Origin: a virus
Direction: 5' to 3' (one strand)
Length of the DNA: 27,828 nt
Virus record (IMG/VR): IMGVR_UViG_3300037294_000159
Coordinates: 1-27,828 of that record
Part shown: positions 1-27,828 of the stretch, piece by piece
How positions within the stretch are numbered: position 1 is the stretch's first letter
Layout of the letters: the number at the start of each line of letters is the position of its first letter
Notes under the pieces: generated by a model
What the model was told of the DNA's origin: nothing
The model's input: the letters and a program-made list of their open reading frames with translations, nothing else
The model's database searches: none
Made by a program: the position numbers and the translations under genes

Positions 1-210
1 TGACTTACTTGCACCTACTAAGCAAAAGAAATCGCCATAAGATGCAATCGGTGTAGGGTATCTGTTTCCCTTATATTCGTGTTTACCGATACTAAGCGCA
101 ATAGGCTGCTGTTTTATAACCTCGTCAATGTTTACAAATGTGCTTGCGTTTATTGCTGAATAGTCATTGTAGATTATTGGGTGGCTGTTAAATTTTATAG
201 GCTGTATCAT
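1..210 (-). CDS. AAA ATPase, N-terminal 70 codons (partial second copy)
   Basis: This is the beginning of the same ATPase gene found whole at 26992-27825. It starts at an ATG at 208-210 and is cut by the window edge after codon 70, inside the Walker A loop. Compared with the whole copy it has residues H10, Y14 and N15 in place of D10, D14 and I15, plus four silent changes at codons 30, 31, 34 and 35. The start forms an ATGA overlap with the stop of the DUF6291-like gene, so the two genes are adjacent and probably translationally coupled on the closed circle. It is not a separate gene. Confidence 0.9.
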   Translation of the reverse strand, partial: MIQPIKFNSHPIIYNDYSAINASTFVNIDEVIKQQPIALSIGKHEYKGNRYPTPIASYGDFFCLVGASKS

Positions 211-213
211 ATC
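1..213. repeat. Terminal direct repeat, left copy
   Basis: These 213 bases match 27616-27828 with 8 mismatches and no gaps, at 106, 109, 118, 121, 166, 167, 171 and 183. The first 105 and last 30 bases are identical. The natural reading is the overlap of a circular or circularly permuted genome. The differences are too clustered, and too often silent, to be random read error. Confidence 0.93.
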
Positions 214-854
214 GACCCTATTTGTTTAACCGTTCTAAATTTCGCTAATCTACCCGCTACGATTTCCGTACCTATCCAGTTGCTGCAATAGGTGCGAAAT
301 TTATTAAACGGCTCGTTGTATTCTCCACCAGTTTGTGTTCCTAAGTGGATTATAAAGTGGTCAACTAACTCGCGCAAATTACCTTGCTTTATTTTGTGTT
401 TACGGTAAACGCTTTCACGCCATATATCGCTTCCAGATTCGCCTATTTTATTTGAGTATAAATCCATAAGACCTTTAAAATATACCTTATTAATTACATT
501 ATCATTATCATTAACATTAACAGTTGGATTTGTTGAGGTTTGTTGAACACTTTCAACACTTGTTGCTTTTGTTGGATTTTGTTGTTCTTTGTTTAACGCT
601 CTTAGTCTTGCTGATTCTTTTCCAGCATCGCTGCGCTTGCCTTTAACTTCCTCAAACTTTACCAAATCCCTTTTAAGCTGGCTTTGTATAAACTTCCACG
701 CTGATAATACAACCCTATTTTCTAATATTGGATTCATATCATTAACATACTCTAAAAGATGATTAAAGAGTATTCCTTTCTCTTCATTAGTTAAGTGATC
801 GATGTTGTTTATTAGATCAGCGTAAAGAACGAATGATTTTTTATCTTGTGCCAT
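207..854 (-). CDS. DUF6291-like phage replication protein
   Basis: A 215-residue protein. Residues 1-80 (SFVLYADLINNIDHLTNEEK, then a segment containing LFNHLLEYVND) match my recollection of DUF6291, common in replication regions of Bacteroidota phages. Residues 85-125 are a polar, Asn/Thr-rich linker. Residues 125-205, with W145, F187 and W193, resemble the C-terminal domain that often follows in such proteins. It starts with a TAATG overlap on the YopX-like gene and ends with an ATGA overlap on the AAA ATPase. That position suggests an origin-binding or helicase-loading partner of the ATPase. The function is inferred from family and context; no catalytic motif is visible. Confidence 0.7.
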   Translation of the reverse strand: MAQDKKSFVLYADLINNIDHLTNEEKGILFNHLLEYVNDMNPILENRVVLSAWKFIQSQLKRDLVKFEEVKGKRSDAGKESARLRALNKEQQNPTKATSVESVQQTSTNPTVNVNDNDNVINKVYFKGLMDLYSNKIGESGSDIWRESVYRKHKIKQGNLRELVDHFIIHLGTQTGGEYNEPFNKFRTYCSNWIGTEIVAGRLAKFRTVKQIGSI

Positions 855-1177
855 TATGATTGATGTATGTTTCCGATTACTTCAAAATATATGCAATGAT
901 GAATAGGATTTGTATAAGGTGCTTCAACTTTTTCTAAAGAAATAAAACAAAACTCTCCTTCTTCAAAAATAATTTCGTATTGTTGAGGATTCCAGCTTTT
1001 AGAACTAATTATATCCCCTTCATAAATATCCACACCGTTTTTGTCTTGAAGTCCTGTGAATTGTTCAAAGATTGTGTTTTCGTTATCTTTATAATAGAAG
1101 TTGTTTGTAACATCTAAAACTGGATAAACCCAATTATTTATTAATATTGACCATACTCTAAATTTTATCTCTCTCAT
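854..1177 (-). CDS. YopX family protein
   Basis: A 107-residue protein with the YopX signature: MREIKFRVW at the start, FEQFTGLQDKNGVDIYEGDI in the middle (residues 37-56) and FEVIGNIHQS at the end. YopX proteins are small beta-rich phage proteins of unknown function, found in Firmicutes and Bacteroidota phages. This is the first gene behind the promoter at 1279-1308 and follows a folded leader RNA whose 3' end lies about 20 nt before the ATG. Translation of this operon may therefore respond to that RNA. The stop overlaps the next start as TAATG. Confidence 0.85.
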   Translation of the reverse strand: MREIKFRVWSILINNWVYPVLDVTNNFYYKDNENTIFEQFTGLQDKNGVDIYEGDIISSKSWNPQQYEIIFEEGEFCFISLEKVEAPYTNPIHHCIYFEVIGNIHQS

Positions 1178-1196
1178 AATTAAATCTTTTAAACGT

Positions 1197-1272
1197 AAAT
1201 ACCCTTTAACTTCGGAGGGGCATCTCGTCAGTCAAAGGGTATTTTATAATTTCTTAAAGTTCATGCCCGAAC
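1197..1272 (-). ncRNA. Structured leader RNA with two kissing hairpins
   Basis: Read on the minus strand, hairpin 1 has stem GUUC/GAAC (1272-1269 with 1262-1259) and loop GGGCAU (1268-1263). Hairpin 2 has a 14-position outer stem (1244-1231 with 1210-1197, one mismatch), an internal loop UGAC/CGAA that can form tandem G-A pairs, an inner stem GAG/CUC (1226-1224 with 1217-1215) and loop AUGCCC (1223-1218). The two loops are exact reverse complements, so a 6-bp loop-loop helix can form. The element begins where transcripts from the promoter at 1279-1308 should start and ends 19 nt before the YopX start codon. No U-run follows, so it is not a simple terminator. I do not recognise it as a known riboswitch or ribozyme. 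Confidence 0.65.
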
Positions 1273-1278
1273 CGTTTA

Positions 1279-1308
1279 CAAATGTAATACTATTTATTAG
1301 ATATACAA
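1279..1308 (-). promoter_or_regulatory. Bacteroidota-type promoter for the YopX-DUF6291-ATPase operon
   Basis: Minus strand: TACATTTG at 1286-1279 fits the -7 consensus TAnnTTTG, and TTG at 1308-1306 fits the -33 element, with a 19-bp spacer. Transcription should start near 1271-1275, exactly at the first hairpin of the leader RNA. Confidence 0.65.
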
Positions 1309-4603: not shown

Positions 4604-4923
4604 AACTTTTTACACCTTGCTATTTCTTTATTTTGCTTTGCGATGATTGCTTTTGATTCTTTTATAACCGTTTCCAACTGACCGATTATACCTTTTAATT
4701 CAGTATTAATTGCTAGTAAGTTTGTCACATTTTCCTGCATATCTTCTAAAAGTTGTTTTTCTACTTCACGGACTGTTTTTAAGTTTTGCAGTTCTACACC
4801 AACGGCATTGGCTTCAGCTTCTTTGTTTGTTGATGCTTGTATTTTACGGCCTGTGAACCACGCAGCAACTGCGCTAAGTGCTAAGAAAATATTATCCCAG
4901 TGGTTCTTAATCAAATCAATCAT
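4600..4923 (-). CDS. Holin-like single-TM protein with coiled coil
   Basis: A 107-residue protein with one membrane helix (residues 9-26, WDNIFLALSAVAAWFTG) followed by a long helical coiled-coil segment (35-100) ending in basic KKL. Class III holins have one membrane helix, and this lies directly before the endolysin with an ATGA overlap, so holin is the best guess. The long coiled coil is unusual for a holin and resembles an Rz-type inner-membrane spanin; because a u-spanin candidate lies two genes on, holin or holin regulator is preferred. Confidence 0.6.
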   Translation of the reverse strand: MIDLIKNHWDNIFLALSAVAAWFTGRKIQASTNKEAEANAVGVELQNLKTVREVEKQLLEDMQENVTNLLAINTELKGIIGQLETVIKESKAIIAKQNKEIARCKKL

Positions 4924-4940
4924 TTTTAAAATATTATTGG

Positions 4941-5336
4941 TTACATTTCTACTGCATCGACTTGCGGTGCTTCTTTTTCTGTTGCTGCTTCTTTTAAATC
5001 TGCTATTTCTTTGGCTGCTTGCGTTGCGCTGGCTTCAAGTTCTGCTATTTCTTTGTCCTTAGTTTCTACTTCCGACTTTAAACCTGCATTTTGACTTTGC
5101 AATGTTTCTATTAAAAGCAAAGCATCTATTAATACTTGCTCTAACACATCGCTTAAAGGGAAGCCCTCTTGCAGTCCTAGCGCCACGCTCTGCACGTTGT
5201 TTTGCTTTTGCGTCAGTACTTCGCCGTCTTTTAAAACGGTGTCTAAAAAGCCTACGTGAGCGCCCGAAATGGTGCTGTCTTGATTCCAACGGACCAAAAA
5301 TTCGTATGGTGTTCTACTTTCTGTAAATTTTGACAT
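4941..5336 (-). CDS. Coiled-coil protein downstream of tail fibre
   Basis: A 131-residue acidic protein. Residues 1-70 (SRTPYEFLVRWNQDSTISGA and onward) form a folded N-terminal part; residues 75-125 are a Glu/Lys/Ala coiled coil. Placement just after the fibre gene suggests a fibre assembly chaperone or a tail appendage protein. No family was recognised. The start ATG follows an A/T-rich leader and the gene ends 17 bp before the holin-like start. Confidence 0.65.
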   Translation of the reverse strand: MSKFTESRTPYEFLVRWNQDSTISGAHVGFLDTVLKDGEVLTQKQNNVQSVALGLQEGFPLSDVLEQVLIDALLLIETLQSQNAGLKSEVETKDKEIAELEASATQAAKEIADLKEAATEKEAPQVDAVEM

Positions 5337-5353
5337 AATTTTTATTTTATTTA

Positions 5354-7591
5354 TTAACTTGATGTTACTGTTTCGTAAGCGGTTGCACCACCTATTCTCA
5401 TTTTATCTAATGTAGTGTTAAAAAACTGCGCGCCTTTTACGTAGGCTGGTTCTGTTGCTGTTGTAAATTGTGCAAATGATATCGCACCCCTCAATATAGT
5501 GTTTGTAATTGCAGTGTTACCTAGAGTTACCGTGTTTGAACCTGCGCCCACGGCATTGTGACCTATTACAATTTGATTGGTTTGGCTATTACCTAACGGC
5601 TTACTTTCAACACCTAAAAACACTGAATTGTTTACTATTGTAGCGTTTGAACCGTCGCCTATAAAACGACCTGCACTTACTCCGTTTGCTGTGTTGTTAG
5701 ACCCTGTGGTGTTAGAAAGTAAGGCACTTACTCCGTTTGAAGTGTTATTAGACCCTGTTGTGTTTGATTGCAAGGCACTTGTTCCATTTGCTGTGTTATT
5801 AGACCCTGTTGTGTTAAAAAGTAATGCATCTCTACCATTTGCTGTATTAAGAGAACCTGTTGTGTTGCTAAATAAAGAAGAAAATCCAAATGCTGCGTTA
5901 CTAGACCCTGTTGTGTTATTAAGAAAGGTAGTATTTCCAACTGATGTGTTACTAAGAATATTACCGCCACCACGTCCAACTGTTACACCGCTTGCGCTTA
6001 TGTTCGAACCTGTTGTTACATCACCGCTAAACTTTCCATTACCTACAACGTCTAGTCGCTCTGTTGGGTTAGTTTGGTTTATACCAACGTTGCCGCTTTC
6101 TGTTATTCTTACGGCTTCAACAGCATTATTAAAACCGAGTTCAATAAAAAACTTAAGACCAGTTCTGTTTGTGCTTACTTTATAAGCTGATATACCAGCC
6201 GCATGATGGTTAGCCCATCCTAGGGTCAACTTGTTTTCACCAGTAAAATCTGTGCTACCATAAGCATTATTTTTAATTAGTAAAGTTTGCCCTATTCCTG
6301 TTGAATTACCCTCAATAGTCTGACTAGCCTGCCCTGTTGATTTTATAACGTTTGACAATCCACTCCCTGAACCTATAAAGTTTGATGCTGAAACCGTGCC
6401 GCTGAACTTACCGTTGCCTACAACGTCTAGTTTTGCTGTTGGGGATGTAGTTCCTAAACCTATATTCGTACCGTTATCAAATAATTGACTATCACCAACC
6501 GCTCCACTTGCCGTGAATTTTGCTAGTCTGTTTGTTGTTCCTGAACCCGAAATTTTAGCATCTACTTCCGAACTAAACGCAACAGCCTTAAACGCGCTGC
6601 CGTCGTGTATGTTTAACCTTGCGTCCTCATCTAGCATTACCGAGCCTTTAACAGCGTTTGTAATAGTAGATAATGCAGCGGTAAAGAACTTTTGCATTCC
6701 GTTTTTAAACAGCGTGTACGCGTCTGAAGGGTTATTGAAATCTACTCCATTACCGTAATTTACAAGTCTGTCTGTAAGGTCGAATACTGTTGCGCTTTGC
6801 GGCGTATAGTCTGTTCCGTTTACACCGCCCGAATGCTCGCCAAATGAACGCGCAAATGTTTGAATACCCTGTGCGTGTGATGCTTGACCGCTTGCTATAT
6901 TGTTTCTACCTTCTGCGTGTGATGCATAACCGCTTGCTGTTGTTGCGCTTCCCTCTGCGTGTGCCGATTCCTCACTTGCGATTGTTTCATCTCCCTCTGC
7001 ATGTGATGCGTAAGCACTTGCAATCGTATTAATTCCTGATGCGTTTGATACGTAGCCACTTGCTGTTGTGAAACTTCCCGAGGCGTGTGATTCAATACCT
7101 GTTGCACCTCTTGTATTGCTTGCTTCTGTTGAGATACTTAAATCAACTGCATTTTCTCCAATATCGCCATAGTTTGCAGGGTCAGCGTCTTTAAGTCTAA
7201 AGCCTGTATTTCCGTTTTCTGTGACTTTTACAAGTTGACCACCCGCTTCTATTGCATCGTCTAAATCCTGCGCCGTTCCAGCATAACCACCGTTTAAAAG
7301 ATAGTCGGCAACAACTGGTATTGCTGGCTTATTTTTAATAAAGTCGTCTTGCGTATCATCATTTTGTAAAAAGTCCGATTGTACGTTTAATTCTGCAAAA
7401 TCTTCAATATTAGCAAGCTTGTTTTTTTCAGTTGTTGTATAGTCGTTTGCGCTTAACCCCTTACCTACTTCTTTATCTACTTTTTCAGTAAATAAGTCGG
7501 TAAAATTAGACTGAACCTTGATAAACGCGGATCTTAGTTTGTCGCCTAGTCCGTCATTCGGCTGTGATACGTTAAAATTTTCCTGTGCCAT
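5354..7591 (-). CDS. Tail fibre / receptor-binding protein with YadA-like repeats
   Basis: A 745-residue protein, probably trimeric. The N-terminal region (1-75, with DGLGDKLRSAFIKVQSNF) is typical of fibre subunits that attach to the tail. Residues 172-255 hold six 14-residue repeats of the type ASGYASHAEG, the left-handed beta-roll motif of YadA-like adhesin heads. A duplicated segment LDVVGNGKFSG occurs near 388 and 513. Residues 559-643 hold five 17-residue repeats NTTGSNNTANGxSAL. The C-terminus (670-745) is a small domain, perhaps for trimerisation or receptor binding; no S74 self-cleaving chaperone is visible. It is expected to bind the host surface, and the repeats could let its length change by recombination. 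Confidence 0.85.
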   Translation of the reverse strand: MAQENFNVSQPNDGLGDKLRSAFIKVQSNFTDLFTEKVDKEVGKGLSANDYTTTEKNKLANIEDFAELNVQSDFLQNDDTQDDFIKNKPAIPVVADYLLNGGYAGTAQDLDDAIEAGGQLVKVTENGNTGFRLKDADPANYGDIGENAVDLSISTEASNTRGATGIESHASGSFTTASGYVSNASGINTIASAYASHAEGDETIASEESAHAEGSATTASGYASHAEGRNNIASGQASHAQGIQTFARSFGEHSGGVNGTDYTPQSATVFDLTDRLVNYGNGVDFNNPSDAYTLFKNGMQKFFTAALSTITNAVKGSVMLDEDARLNIHDGSAFKAVAFSSEVDAKISGSGTTNRLAKFTASGAVGDSQLFDNGTNIGLGTTSPTAKLDVVGNGKFSGTVSASNFIGSGSGLSNVIKSTGQASQTIEGNSTGIGQTLLIKNNAYGSTDFTGENKLTLGWANHHAAGISAYKVSTNRTGLKFFIELGFNNAVEAVRITESGNVGINQTNPTERLDVVGNGKFSGDVTTGSNISASGVTVGRGGGNILSNTSVGNTTFLNNTTGSSNAAFGFSSLFSNTTGSLNTANGRDALLFNTTGSNNTANGTSALQSNTTGSNNTSNGVSALLSNTTGSNNTANGVSAGRFIGDGSNATIVNNSVFLGVESKPLGNSQTNQIVIGHNAVGAGSNTVTLGNTAITNTILRGAISFAQFTTATEPAYVKGAQFFNTTLDKMRIGGATAYETVTSS
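5663..5917 (-). repeat. Five 51-bp tandem repeats in the fibre gene
   Basis: Units recur every 51 bp exactly (conserved ACCCTGTTGTGTT core on the plus strand near 5701, 5752, 5803, 5854 and 5905), each encoding 17 residues starting NTTGS. The three lowest-coordinate units are most alike, suggesting recent expansion at that end. Confidence 0.9.
6827..7078 (-). repeat. Six 42-bp repeats (YadA-like) in the fibre gene
   Basis: Six consecutive 14-codon units, each with pattern G-x-x-x-I/T-A-S-x-x-x-S-H/N-A-E/S, make up residues 172-255. DNA identity between units is moderate, so these are older than the 51-bp set. Confidence 0.85.
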
Positions 7592-23291: not shown

Positions 23292-23812
23292 TATTGTAGT
23301 TTTAATTTCATAGCGTCTTTTGTTGCAGCGGTTGCGGCTTGTTCTGCTGGTGTAAACGCCTTGTAAGTAGTTTGTAGTTCACTCATAGTATTGCAAGCGT
23401 TTAGCCTATTGTTTAAACGTGGTACGTCTAGTTTTGGGGATAGTGGTTCGCCTGCTGCGTCTGCATCTTTATCGGTCACTAATCCTAACATGCTAGAAAG
23501 GCTATAACGTCTTATATAAGTGATTGCGCTTCCCAGTACTTGAAAATCATTCATACCCTTTAAGGTAACGCCCTGTGGTATCTCTGTTACGCTTTTGATT
23601 ATTTCTCCACTATCTACGTGAAACAAAATAGTTTCAATAGTTGTTCCGTTTACTAGTTGCGTAAAGCCTAGACCGTTTTTAGCCAATAAAGGATTAATAG
23701 TTTCTAGTATTGTGCTTAGGTTTGTGTACGTGTAGCCATATCCTTTCGTGTCCTGGTGGATTGTTTTTACTTCTTGCTGAAATAAAGCGAGTGATTTATA
23801 AATGTTTTTCAT
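23291..23812 (-). CDS. erf: ERF family single-strand annealing protein
   Basis: A 173-residue protein with the ERF signature: YTYTNLSTILETINPLLAKN (27-46), GLGFTQ, then VDSGEII, GVTLKGMNDFQVLGSAITYI (83-102) and RRYSLSSMLGLVTDKDADAA. ERF proteins anneal complementary single strands, here probably to circularise or recombine the genome. The C-terminus (130-173) is a short Ala-rich helix region. It is followed by a 71-aa partner and a NinB-like protein, with NinG elsewhere: a lambda-like recombination set. Confidence 0.9.
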   Translation of the reverse strand: MKNIYKSLALFQQEVKTIHQDTKGYGYTYTNLSTILETINPLLAKNGLGFTQLVNGTTIETILFHVDSGEIIKSVTEIPQGVTLKGMNDFQVLGSAITYIRRYSLSSMLGLVTDKDADAAGEPLSPKLDVPRLNNRLNACNTMSELQTTYKAFTPAEQAATAATKDAMKLKLQ

Positions 23813-27005: not shown

Positions 27006-27825
27006 TTTTTTTATTTTTTACTTCGGTTTGGATTGGCAGGCTATTATTATCTAAGTTGAACGCAATGTCATAAAAAGCGCGGTTCCGTGTATATTGAGCC
27101 GATAGCGTAGTTGTATCATCTTCGGTTACAACGCTTATAACTGTTTCCGCTTTCTTTGTTACGCTGCTTCCTAAATGTCCTGTGGCTTTTAAAGTGCCGT
27201 AATTCATGTGCAAAACCGTACCGATTGCTATTTTGTATTCTTTACTCCAACTCATAAGTAGTTGTACCACCGCATTACATTCCTCAATATCATTAACGTT
27301 TTTTACTAGGTCAGCGATTCCGTCAATAAACATTAACCCGATGTTTTTTATGTTTTTAATTTGCCATTTTATCAAGCCTATTCGCTGGTCCACGTCAAGG
27401 CTTCTCATGCTGTAAGGATAATAACCACCATATTTATAACCGACCATTTCTAGCACCTGCCTTGCGCCCTGCTGTGTGTGAAATACAGACTGCTCCGTGT
27501 CGTTATCAATAACTATTTTATTTTCGTTGTCGTGTCCTGCAATATCTGGAAAGTAGTCGCTTGCATTACCGCCTATGTAACTGGCTATAATAGCTTTTTT
27601 TGCAAATGTCTTGCGTGACTTACTTGCACCTACTAAGCAAAAGAAATCGCCATAAGATGCAATCGGTGTAGGGTATCTGTTTCCCTTATATTCGTGTTTA
27701 CCGATACTAAGCGCAATAGGTTGTTGTTTTATTACTTCGTCAATGTTTACAAATGTGCTTGCGTTTATTGCTGAATAGTCGATGTCGATTATTGGGTCGC
27801 TGTTAAATTTTATAGGCTGTATCAT
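26992..27825 (-). CDS. AAA ATPase, RepA/DnaB-like replication helicase candidate
   Basis: A 277-residue protein. Walker A is GASKSRKT (66-73) with R71 where the consensus has Gly, and Walker B is GLMFIDGIADL (163-173, D168). Sensor-like segment: GTVLHMNYGTLK (about 203-214), then HLGSSVTKKAETVISV. The layout fits the AAA_25/RepA-like hexameric helicases. It should unwind DNA after loading by the DUF6291-like protein, which lies immediately upstream on the closed circle with an ATGA overlap. The unusual Walker A could lower ATP turnover or be a family trait. The first 71 codons are repeated at 1-213 with differences. Confidence 0.8.
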   Translation of the reverse strand: MIQPIKFNSDPIIDIDYSAINASTFVNIDEVIKQQPIALSIGKHEYKGNRYPTPIASYGDFFCLVGASKSRKTFAKKAIIASYIGGNASDYFPDIAGHDNENKIVIDNDTEQSVFHTQQGARQVLEMVGYKYGGYYPYSMRSLDVDQRIGLIKWQIKNIKNIGLMFIDGIADLVKNVNDIEECNAVVQLLMSWSKEYKIAIGTVLHMNYGTLKATGHLGSSVTKKAETVISVVTEDDTTTLSAQYTRNRAFYDIAFNLDNNSLPIQTEVKNKKNGNY

Positions 27826-27828
27826 ATC
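27616..27828. repeat. Terminal direct repeat, right copy
   Basis: Matches 1-213 with 8 mismatches. This copy encodes D10, D14 and I15 in the ATPase. It contains the start of the complete ATPase gene (ATG at 27823-27825). Confidence 0.93.

Follow-up and report, generated by a model that had tools for sequence, protein, structure and literature searches.

In pT181-type attenuators, kissing of hairpin loops is coupled to a terminator in the leader, often before a replication gene, and in the ColIb-P9/IncI repZ leader pseudoknot, pairing between two hairpin loops takes place within a single leader, ahead of a replication gene. Riboswitches and ribozymes, too, can contain tandem G-A internal loops and kissing loops. 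Orthogonal engineered versions of the pT181-type attenuators exist, according to the accessible part of PMC3753616. The putL site of phage HK022, as described in the accessible part of PMC9378689, is ~70 nt long and consists of two stem-loops directly behind the promoter, with two copies per genome located at the heads of operons.

The 27,828-nt stretch of viral DNA analysed here (the window, IMG/VR record IMGVR_UViG_3300037294_000159) carries a predicted leader RNA with two hairpins, and its relatives form a family. The nearest functional analogue in layout is the put system of HK022 (putL/putR), which likewise has two stem-loops directly behind early phage promoters, at operon heads and acting in cis; the likeness, i.e. 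two stem-loops directly downstream of a phage promoter, is one of description only, and no membership is claimed (PMC9378689, accessible part). The put sites differ in their conserved sequence, in belonging to a proteobacterial phage and, as far as that part of the source describes them, in having neither a terminator U-tract nor a loop-loop helix. With the pT181-type attenuators, the phage leaders share the coupling of hairpin-loop kissing to a terminator in a leader, but in pT181 the kissing partner is an antisense RNA acting in trans, and the terminator is switched by alternative pairings, whereas here both partners lie within the leader and no alternative pairings are conserved. The repZ leader shares loop-loop pairing inside one leader; there, however, the paired region coincides in part with the ribosome site and serves to activate translation, whereas in the phage leaders it is found at the 5' end, before many unrelated genes. 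The P4 CI and P1 c4 immunity RNAs are also short phage leader RNAs with short complementary words, and one member of the present family precedes an antirepressor gene, but these RNAs are trans-acting antisense RNAs, and the c4 family, which is present in Rfam (RF01695), does not match the leader. Finally, purine riboswitches contain two hairpins joined by loop-loop pairs, together with a ligand-binding three-way junction with a conserved core that is absent from the phage leader.

Bacteroidota promoters are of the TTG / TAnnTTTG type, and a putative promoter of this type precedes the leader in the window. The features of the locus are the following.

1306..1308, minus strand: TTG of the -33 element of the putative Bacteroidota promoter, assigned by sequence from the TTG / TAnnTTTG type
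1279..1286, minus strand: -7 box TACATTTG, read from the sequence, with the transcript start expected ~4-7 nt further on
1259..1272, minus strand: hairpin 1, GUUC-GGGCAU-GAAC, at the extreme 5' end of the predicted transcript, from sequence and fold; the homologous stem in relatives is GUUAC/GUAAC
1263..1268, minus strand: kissing word 1, the hairpin 1 loop GGGCAU, exact complement of 1218-1223 and covarying in relatives
1245..1258, minus strand: A/U-rich linker of 14 nt; linkers in relatives are mostly 5-19 nt
1197..1244, minus strand: hairpin 2, from sequence and fold, with a 15-bp basal stem, a GAC/CGA internal loop, a 3-bp apical stem and a 6-nt loop; both stems covary
1218..1223, minus strand: kissing word 2, the hairpin 2 apical loop AUGCCC, covarying in relatives
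1186..1201, minus strand: U-rich tail UAUUUACGUUUAAAA after the last G-C pair, a weak form of U-tract (score 2.42)
854..1177, minus strand: first gene after the leader, with a YopX domain (PF09643) and its start codon at 1177
207..854, minus strand: DUF6291/DUF7833 gene, related to primosomal proteins, which in the relative L040 directly follows the leader

Because the -7 box at 1286-1279 lies only a few nucleotides from hairpin 1, this hairpin would form the 5' end of the transcript. An earlier note, made from the letters of the window, had proposed a folded leader with exactly complementary hairpin loops behind a promoter, and this description holds: on the minus strand, each of the two 6-nt loops is the exact reverse complement of the other, and the 103-nt leader folds at -29.2 kcal/mol, compared with a mean of -16.2 for shuffled sequences (z -4.7, with none of the 200 shuffles as good). 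The dimensions given there require correction. The gap between the hairpins is 14 nt, not 30, and the long second hairpin, correctly recognized by its tandem G-A and the loop AUGCCC, has 18 pairs in total instead of a 14-position stem, with the apical stem GAG/CUC and an internal loop that consists of the tandem G-A plus a C-C. The window fold also includes an outer pairing, UAAACG/CGUUUA, which does not recur in the relatives and does not belong to the family structure.

About 40 distinct relatives were found in IMG/VR contigs and in cultured phages, namely Cellulophaga phi18:3 and phi19:3, Flavobacterium snusmum, hattifnatt, 11b and FCL-2, and Tenacibaculum Gundel_1; members were additionally gathered by a promoter/start pattern search and by blastn against phage records. 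The first 50 kb of crAss001 yielded no leader. The relative L040/L047 (IMGVR_UViG_3300037347_000015, 29.8 kb) shares promoter and leader with the window (76% identity), and its loops, AGGCAC and GUGCCU, both differ from those of the window but remain exactly complementary; in L020, the loops CGUCUGAC and GUCAGACG form an exact 8-nt complement. Over the family, the kissing words are 6-9 nt long and come in about 30 different versions, exactly complementary throughout. A descriptor composed of the -7 box, hairpin 1, a loop word of at least 6 nt and hairpin 2 with the complement in its loop gave 44 distinct matches at a score of at least 26 in 1.73 Mb, compared with 2 in the same DNA reversed, so that ~42 of the matches would be real. 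This estimate agrees with the two or so matches that are probably due to chance, L128 and L119, the latter inside coding sequence. True members escaped the first descriptor because of its strict -7 and stem rules (L013, L015, L062-L068 and, recognized by eye, L058), and the census counts are, therefore, lower bounds.

The family is held together by architecture. Hairpin 1 mostly starts 3-7 nt after the -7 box, with a distance of 10-11 nt in a DUF6291 subgroup where, by eye, an outer pairing seems to extend hairpin 1; the TAnnTTYG-type box precedes all descriptor members by construction but is also found ahead of members detected through hairpin 1 alone (e.g. L087, L107 and L103). In the main subgroup, the hairpin 1 loop consists of the 8 kissing nucleotides plus 6 nt, and the hairpin 2 loop of 2 nt plus the 8 kissing nucleotides, and often, not always, an internal loop with G-A mismatches separates the apical and basal stems of hairpin 2. 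The hairpin 1 stem, the linker and part of the internal loop are common to one subgroup only, from which the window and L040 differ, and across the whole family no nucleotides are conserved, with both words and stems changing freely.

Genome-scale records contain 1-3 leader copies per phage, with three each in G013 and G010. The two leaders of phi18:3 point in opposite directions, leftward before the replication genes (3175-) and rightward before a 26-kb gene block (23591+); those of snusmum precede a helicase and a second helicase/VapE block (9715+ and 14691+), and those of L049 (1263+ and 2372+) have different kissing words and each head a different gene block. At 23591, promoter and leader are overlapped by a small annotated ORF (gp058 in KC821620.1, 23539-23640) that was probably misannotated. 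No genome with several leaders uses the same kissing word twice, which implies pairing in cis, within one RNA.

An unbiased measure of the loop complementarity was obtained by searching viral contigs with the hairpin 1 pattern alone, the complementarity not being used for selection. The pattern was found in 11 viral contigs, with one site cut by the contig end, and all of the ten complete sites are followed by the exact 8-nt loop complement 58-63 nt downstream; for comparison, the same pattern, which covers one subgroup only, has five matches in 84,980 cellular genomes, none with the complement, and these five are chance matches. In an alignment of ten leaders (eight from the hairpin 1 pattern and two found by other routes), the pairing in the kissing helix (14-21/72-79) is 100% across the 10 sequences, 6 of the 8 pairs of this helix are changed on both sides, and its covariation score is reached by none of 500 shuffles. 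A second alignment, with the full hairpin 2, has both-sided changes in 16 of 30 pairs, distributed over hairpin 1, the basal and apical stems and the kissing helix. The two words, accordingly, behave as expected of a kissing-loop RNA: both lie in hairpin loops, are exactly complementary and show compensatory changes. Furthermore, in 39 of 44 cases the transcribed strand gives a better fold of hairpin 2 than the opposite one, an asymmetry which indicates selection at the level of RNA. These comparisons confirm the window leader as a real RNA element, one of a family. They also bear out the view of the earlier note that the loop pairing is hard to explain by chance (10/10 complements, 44 against 2 descriptor matches), as well as the covariation that it predicted in both stems and the two loops.

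The covariance models of Rfam 15 have no match above the gathering threshold in the window or in five relative loci, in line with the earlier statement that no known class has this layout; below the threshold, there are only spurious matches at E 0.02 (SscA, 25.4 of 60 bits) or worse. In the literature covered, which is incomplete, neither a published description of this leader family nor an RNA antitermination or attenuation system of Bacteroidota phages was found, and the accessible part of PMC2864571 lists no matching motif. Judged by its sequences, this is a phage leader family without an Rfam entry, of a known kind, the structured operon leader.

Nearly all copies of the leader directly precede a gene, but the identity of that gene varies. 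In L040, the leader lies directly before a DUF6291 replication-type gene, whereas in the window the YopX gene intervenes; the offset from the leader to the start codon is the same 24 nt for these two different genes. Among 28 loci that were found through DUF6291, the strict descriptor places a leader directly upstream in 10, and a looser one does so in six more (L062-L065, L067 and L068). Other first genes are those for a helicase, an antirepressor and HNH-type proteins. The start codon is mostly 10-28 nt 3' of hairpin 2 and is ~50 nt away in four members. The constancy of the leader under changing first genes (YopX, DUF6291, helicase, antirepressor, HNH) fits control at the level of the operon, and the expected position at operon 5' ends is borne out by the leaders that head operons in many flavobacterial phages. 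An association with YopX, in contrast, did not survive: of the 33 YopX loci that the first search had given, none has a leader immediately upstream by the strict descriptor and two (L013 and L015) do by the looser one, so the leader is not a YopX regulator.

Several neighbouring features of these genomes can be mentioned here. Compared with the window, L040 has an extra stretch with a small ORF (4736-5227) between the end of the upstream gene and the leader, and the YopX gene is absent behind its leader, i.e. genes on both flanks turn over while the leader persists. The window encodes, at 2051-2368, a small protein consisting only of the DnaA C-terminal helix-turn-helix domain (PF08299), and DnaA-HTH-like genes are also located upstream of the leader in phi18:3 and snusmum. 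The ends of the window (1-213 and 27616-27828) form a direct near-repeat, 96% identical with 8 mismatches; since the same gene start is found at both ends, the record probably represents a single turn of a circular or permuted genome, joined together from variants that differ slightly. A long putative tail gene (5354-7591) contains units rich in Asn, Thr, Gly and Ser (NTTGSNNTANG), arranged head to tail, and their number is a candidate for variation.

The sequence behind hairpin 2 bears directly on function. In most members, TTTTTT starts straight after the last G-C pair of the hairpin, and the U-tract score in the leader direction has a median of 4.40 and is at least 3.3 in 27 of 39 hairpins; the same hairpins read on the other strand have a median of 1.71, with 4 of 39 at or above 3.3 (p 1e-6). 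With an earlier trimming, the member median was 4.38, a value reached by 0.3-0.5% of background sites. A hairpin followed by a U-tract in most members makes hairpin 2 an intrinsic terminator by sequence, placed between the promoter and the first gene. The family as a whole has the G-C hairpin and direct U-tract of a terminator or attenuator in this position, and the window copy is a weak instance of it. A classical two-state attenuator was considered and rejected, there being no conserved, mutually exclusive antiterminator pairing against hairpin 2: alternative pairing of the hairpin 2 5' arm with upstream sequence involves 20% of positions, compared with 26% after shuffling, i.e. no excess. 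Hairpin 1 and the terminator are, accordingly, connected by a single conserved feature, the loop-loop contact.

Comparison of the members establishes that hairpin 1 is placed at the first nucleotides of the predicted transcript and that the hairpin 2 loop pairs exactly with the hairpin 1 loop. The element probably governs the expression of the genes that follow it. Tentatively, the explanation favoured is that these flavobacterial phages carry a cis-acting 5' leader RNA which may control transcription into the operon behind it, by conditional termination or antitermination. Hairpin 1, folded first, would capture the loop of hairpin 2 as the polymerase makes it, and whether or not the kissing contact is formed would decide between a stop at the U-tract, with release of a ~90-nt leader RNA, and read-through into the operon. 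The default, we think, would be read-through from the phage's own promoter, because the contact can form by itself in cis, with termination if hairpin 1 is blocked or unformed. Antitermination, as suggested in the earlier note, is on this evidence a live reading, and the translation switch suggested along with it is a rival. Against conditional termination stand the weak U-tracts of the window copy and of the relatives closest to it (L040, L087, L114 and L071), with scores of 2.1-2.4 that do not exceed those of the reverse strand, the absence of a conserved pairing that would break hairpin 2, and the fact that loop-loop pairing alone does not forbid the terminator stem; a start codon at a short and rather uniform distance would likewise be compatible with a role in translation.

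Such a role, with the kissing complex hiding the 5' end from 5'-end-dependent decay and the U-rich stretch serving as a landing site for the ribosome (S1), is rather unlikely. The start of hairpin 1 a few nucleotides after the -7 box, at the very 5' end, would suit it, as would the weak U-tracts of some members and the usual 10-28 nt between hairpin 2 and the start codon, including the 24-nt offset shared by the window and L040 genes. However, the U-tract begins at the last G-C pair and is strongly one-sided, features required of a terminator but not of a landing site; initiation would be hindered rather than helped by a stable hairpin 10 nt from the AUG, and in four members the start codon is ~50 nt away.

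Rather unlikely, too, is a put-like antiterminator, in which the kissing complex would bind the host RNA polymerase and make it resist pauses and terminators far downstream, the U-run being only a loading pause; put RNA itself is also characterised by its binding to the beta-prime zinc-binding domain. The leaders, ~75-110 nt with two hairpins at the transcript start and 1-3 copies per phage, resemble HK022 putL in layout, and phi18:3 has one leader in each direction, the rightward one before a 26-kb gene block, but the family lacks the conserved nucleotides that direct polymerase contact would suggest, and put, as presented in the accessible part of PMC9378689, has no loop-loop helix.

That the terminated leader is a trans-acting small RNA, directed e.g. 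at the leader of a superinfecting relative in the manner of the P4 immunity RNA, appears improbable: the terminator-like 3' end, the compact RNA and the divergence of words between phages would be expected of it, but the words differ between copies of one genome, which leaves no cross-talk among copies, and almost every copy is directly before a gene. A riboswitch or self-cleaving ribozyme, suggested by hammerhead-like letters (CUGACGAG...CGAA) combined with the tandem G-A and kissing loops of the window copy, is highly improbable, and this part of the earlier note is not supported: those letters are private to the window copy and absent from relatives, no ligand-pocket nucleotides are conserved across homologues or any nucleotides family-wide, and in Rfam nothing reaches the gathering score, all matches up to E 10 being spurious. 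As for the hammerhead itself, one continuous stem flanks the motif, with no third stem around CUGANGA...GAAA, and a search of viral contigs with the motif pattern, for a hammerhead or other ribozyme, returned 4 matches, none with the second hairpin. Although hairpins arise easily in AT-rich intergenic DNA, chance hairpins or a DNA-level palindrome are refuted by the covariation, the ten unbiased complements and the strand asymmetry, and have a negligible probability.

Within the favoured explanation of conditional termination or antitermination in cis, a more specific and doubtful possibility is an undescribed RNA class in which the 5'-terminal hairpin kisses the loop of an intrinsic terminator, with a private word for each operon, such that only transcripts with an intact 5' hairpin would pass the terminator. 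It would add a tertiary loop-loop contact in cis with a terminator hairpin as a means of transcription control, and the freely changing kissing words would give a ready set of orthogonal parts. Bacteroidota phages are among the commonest of the sea and the gut, and their gene control is little known; a compact element that recurs in several cultured phages is testable at once.
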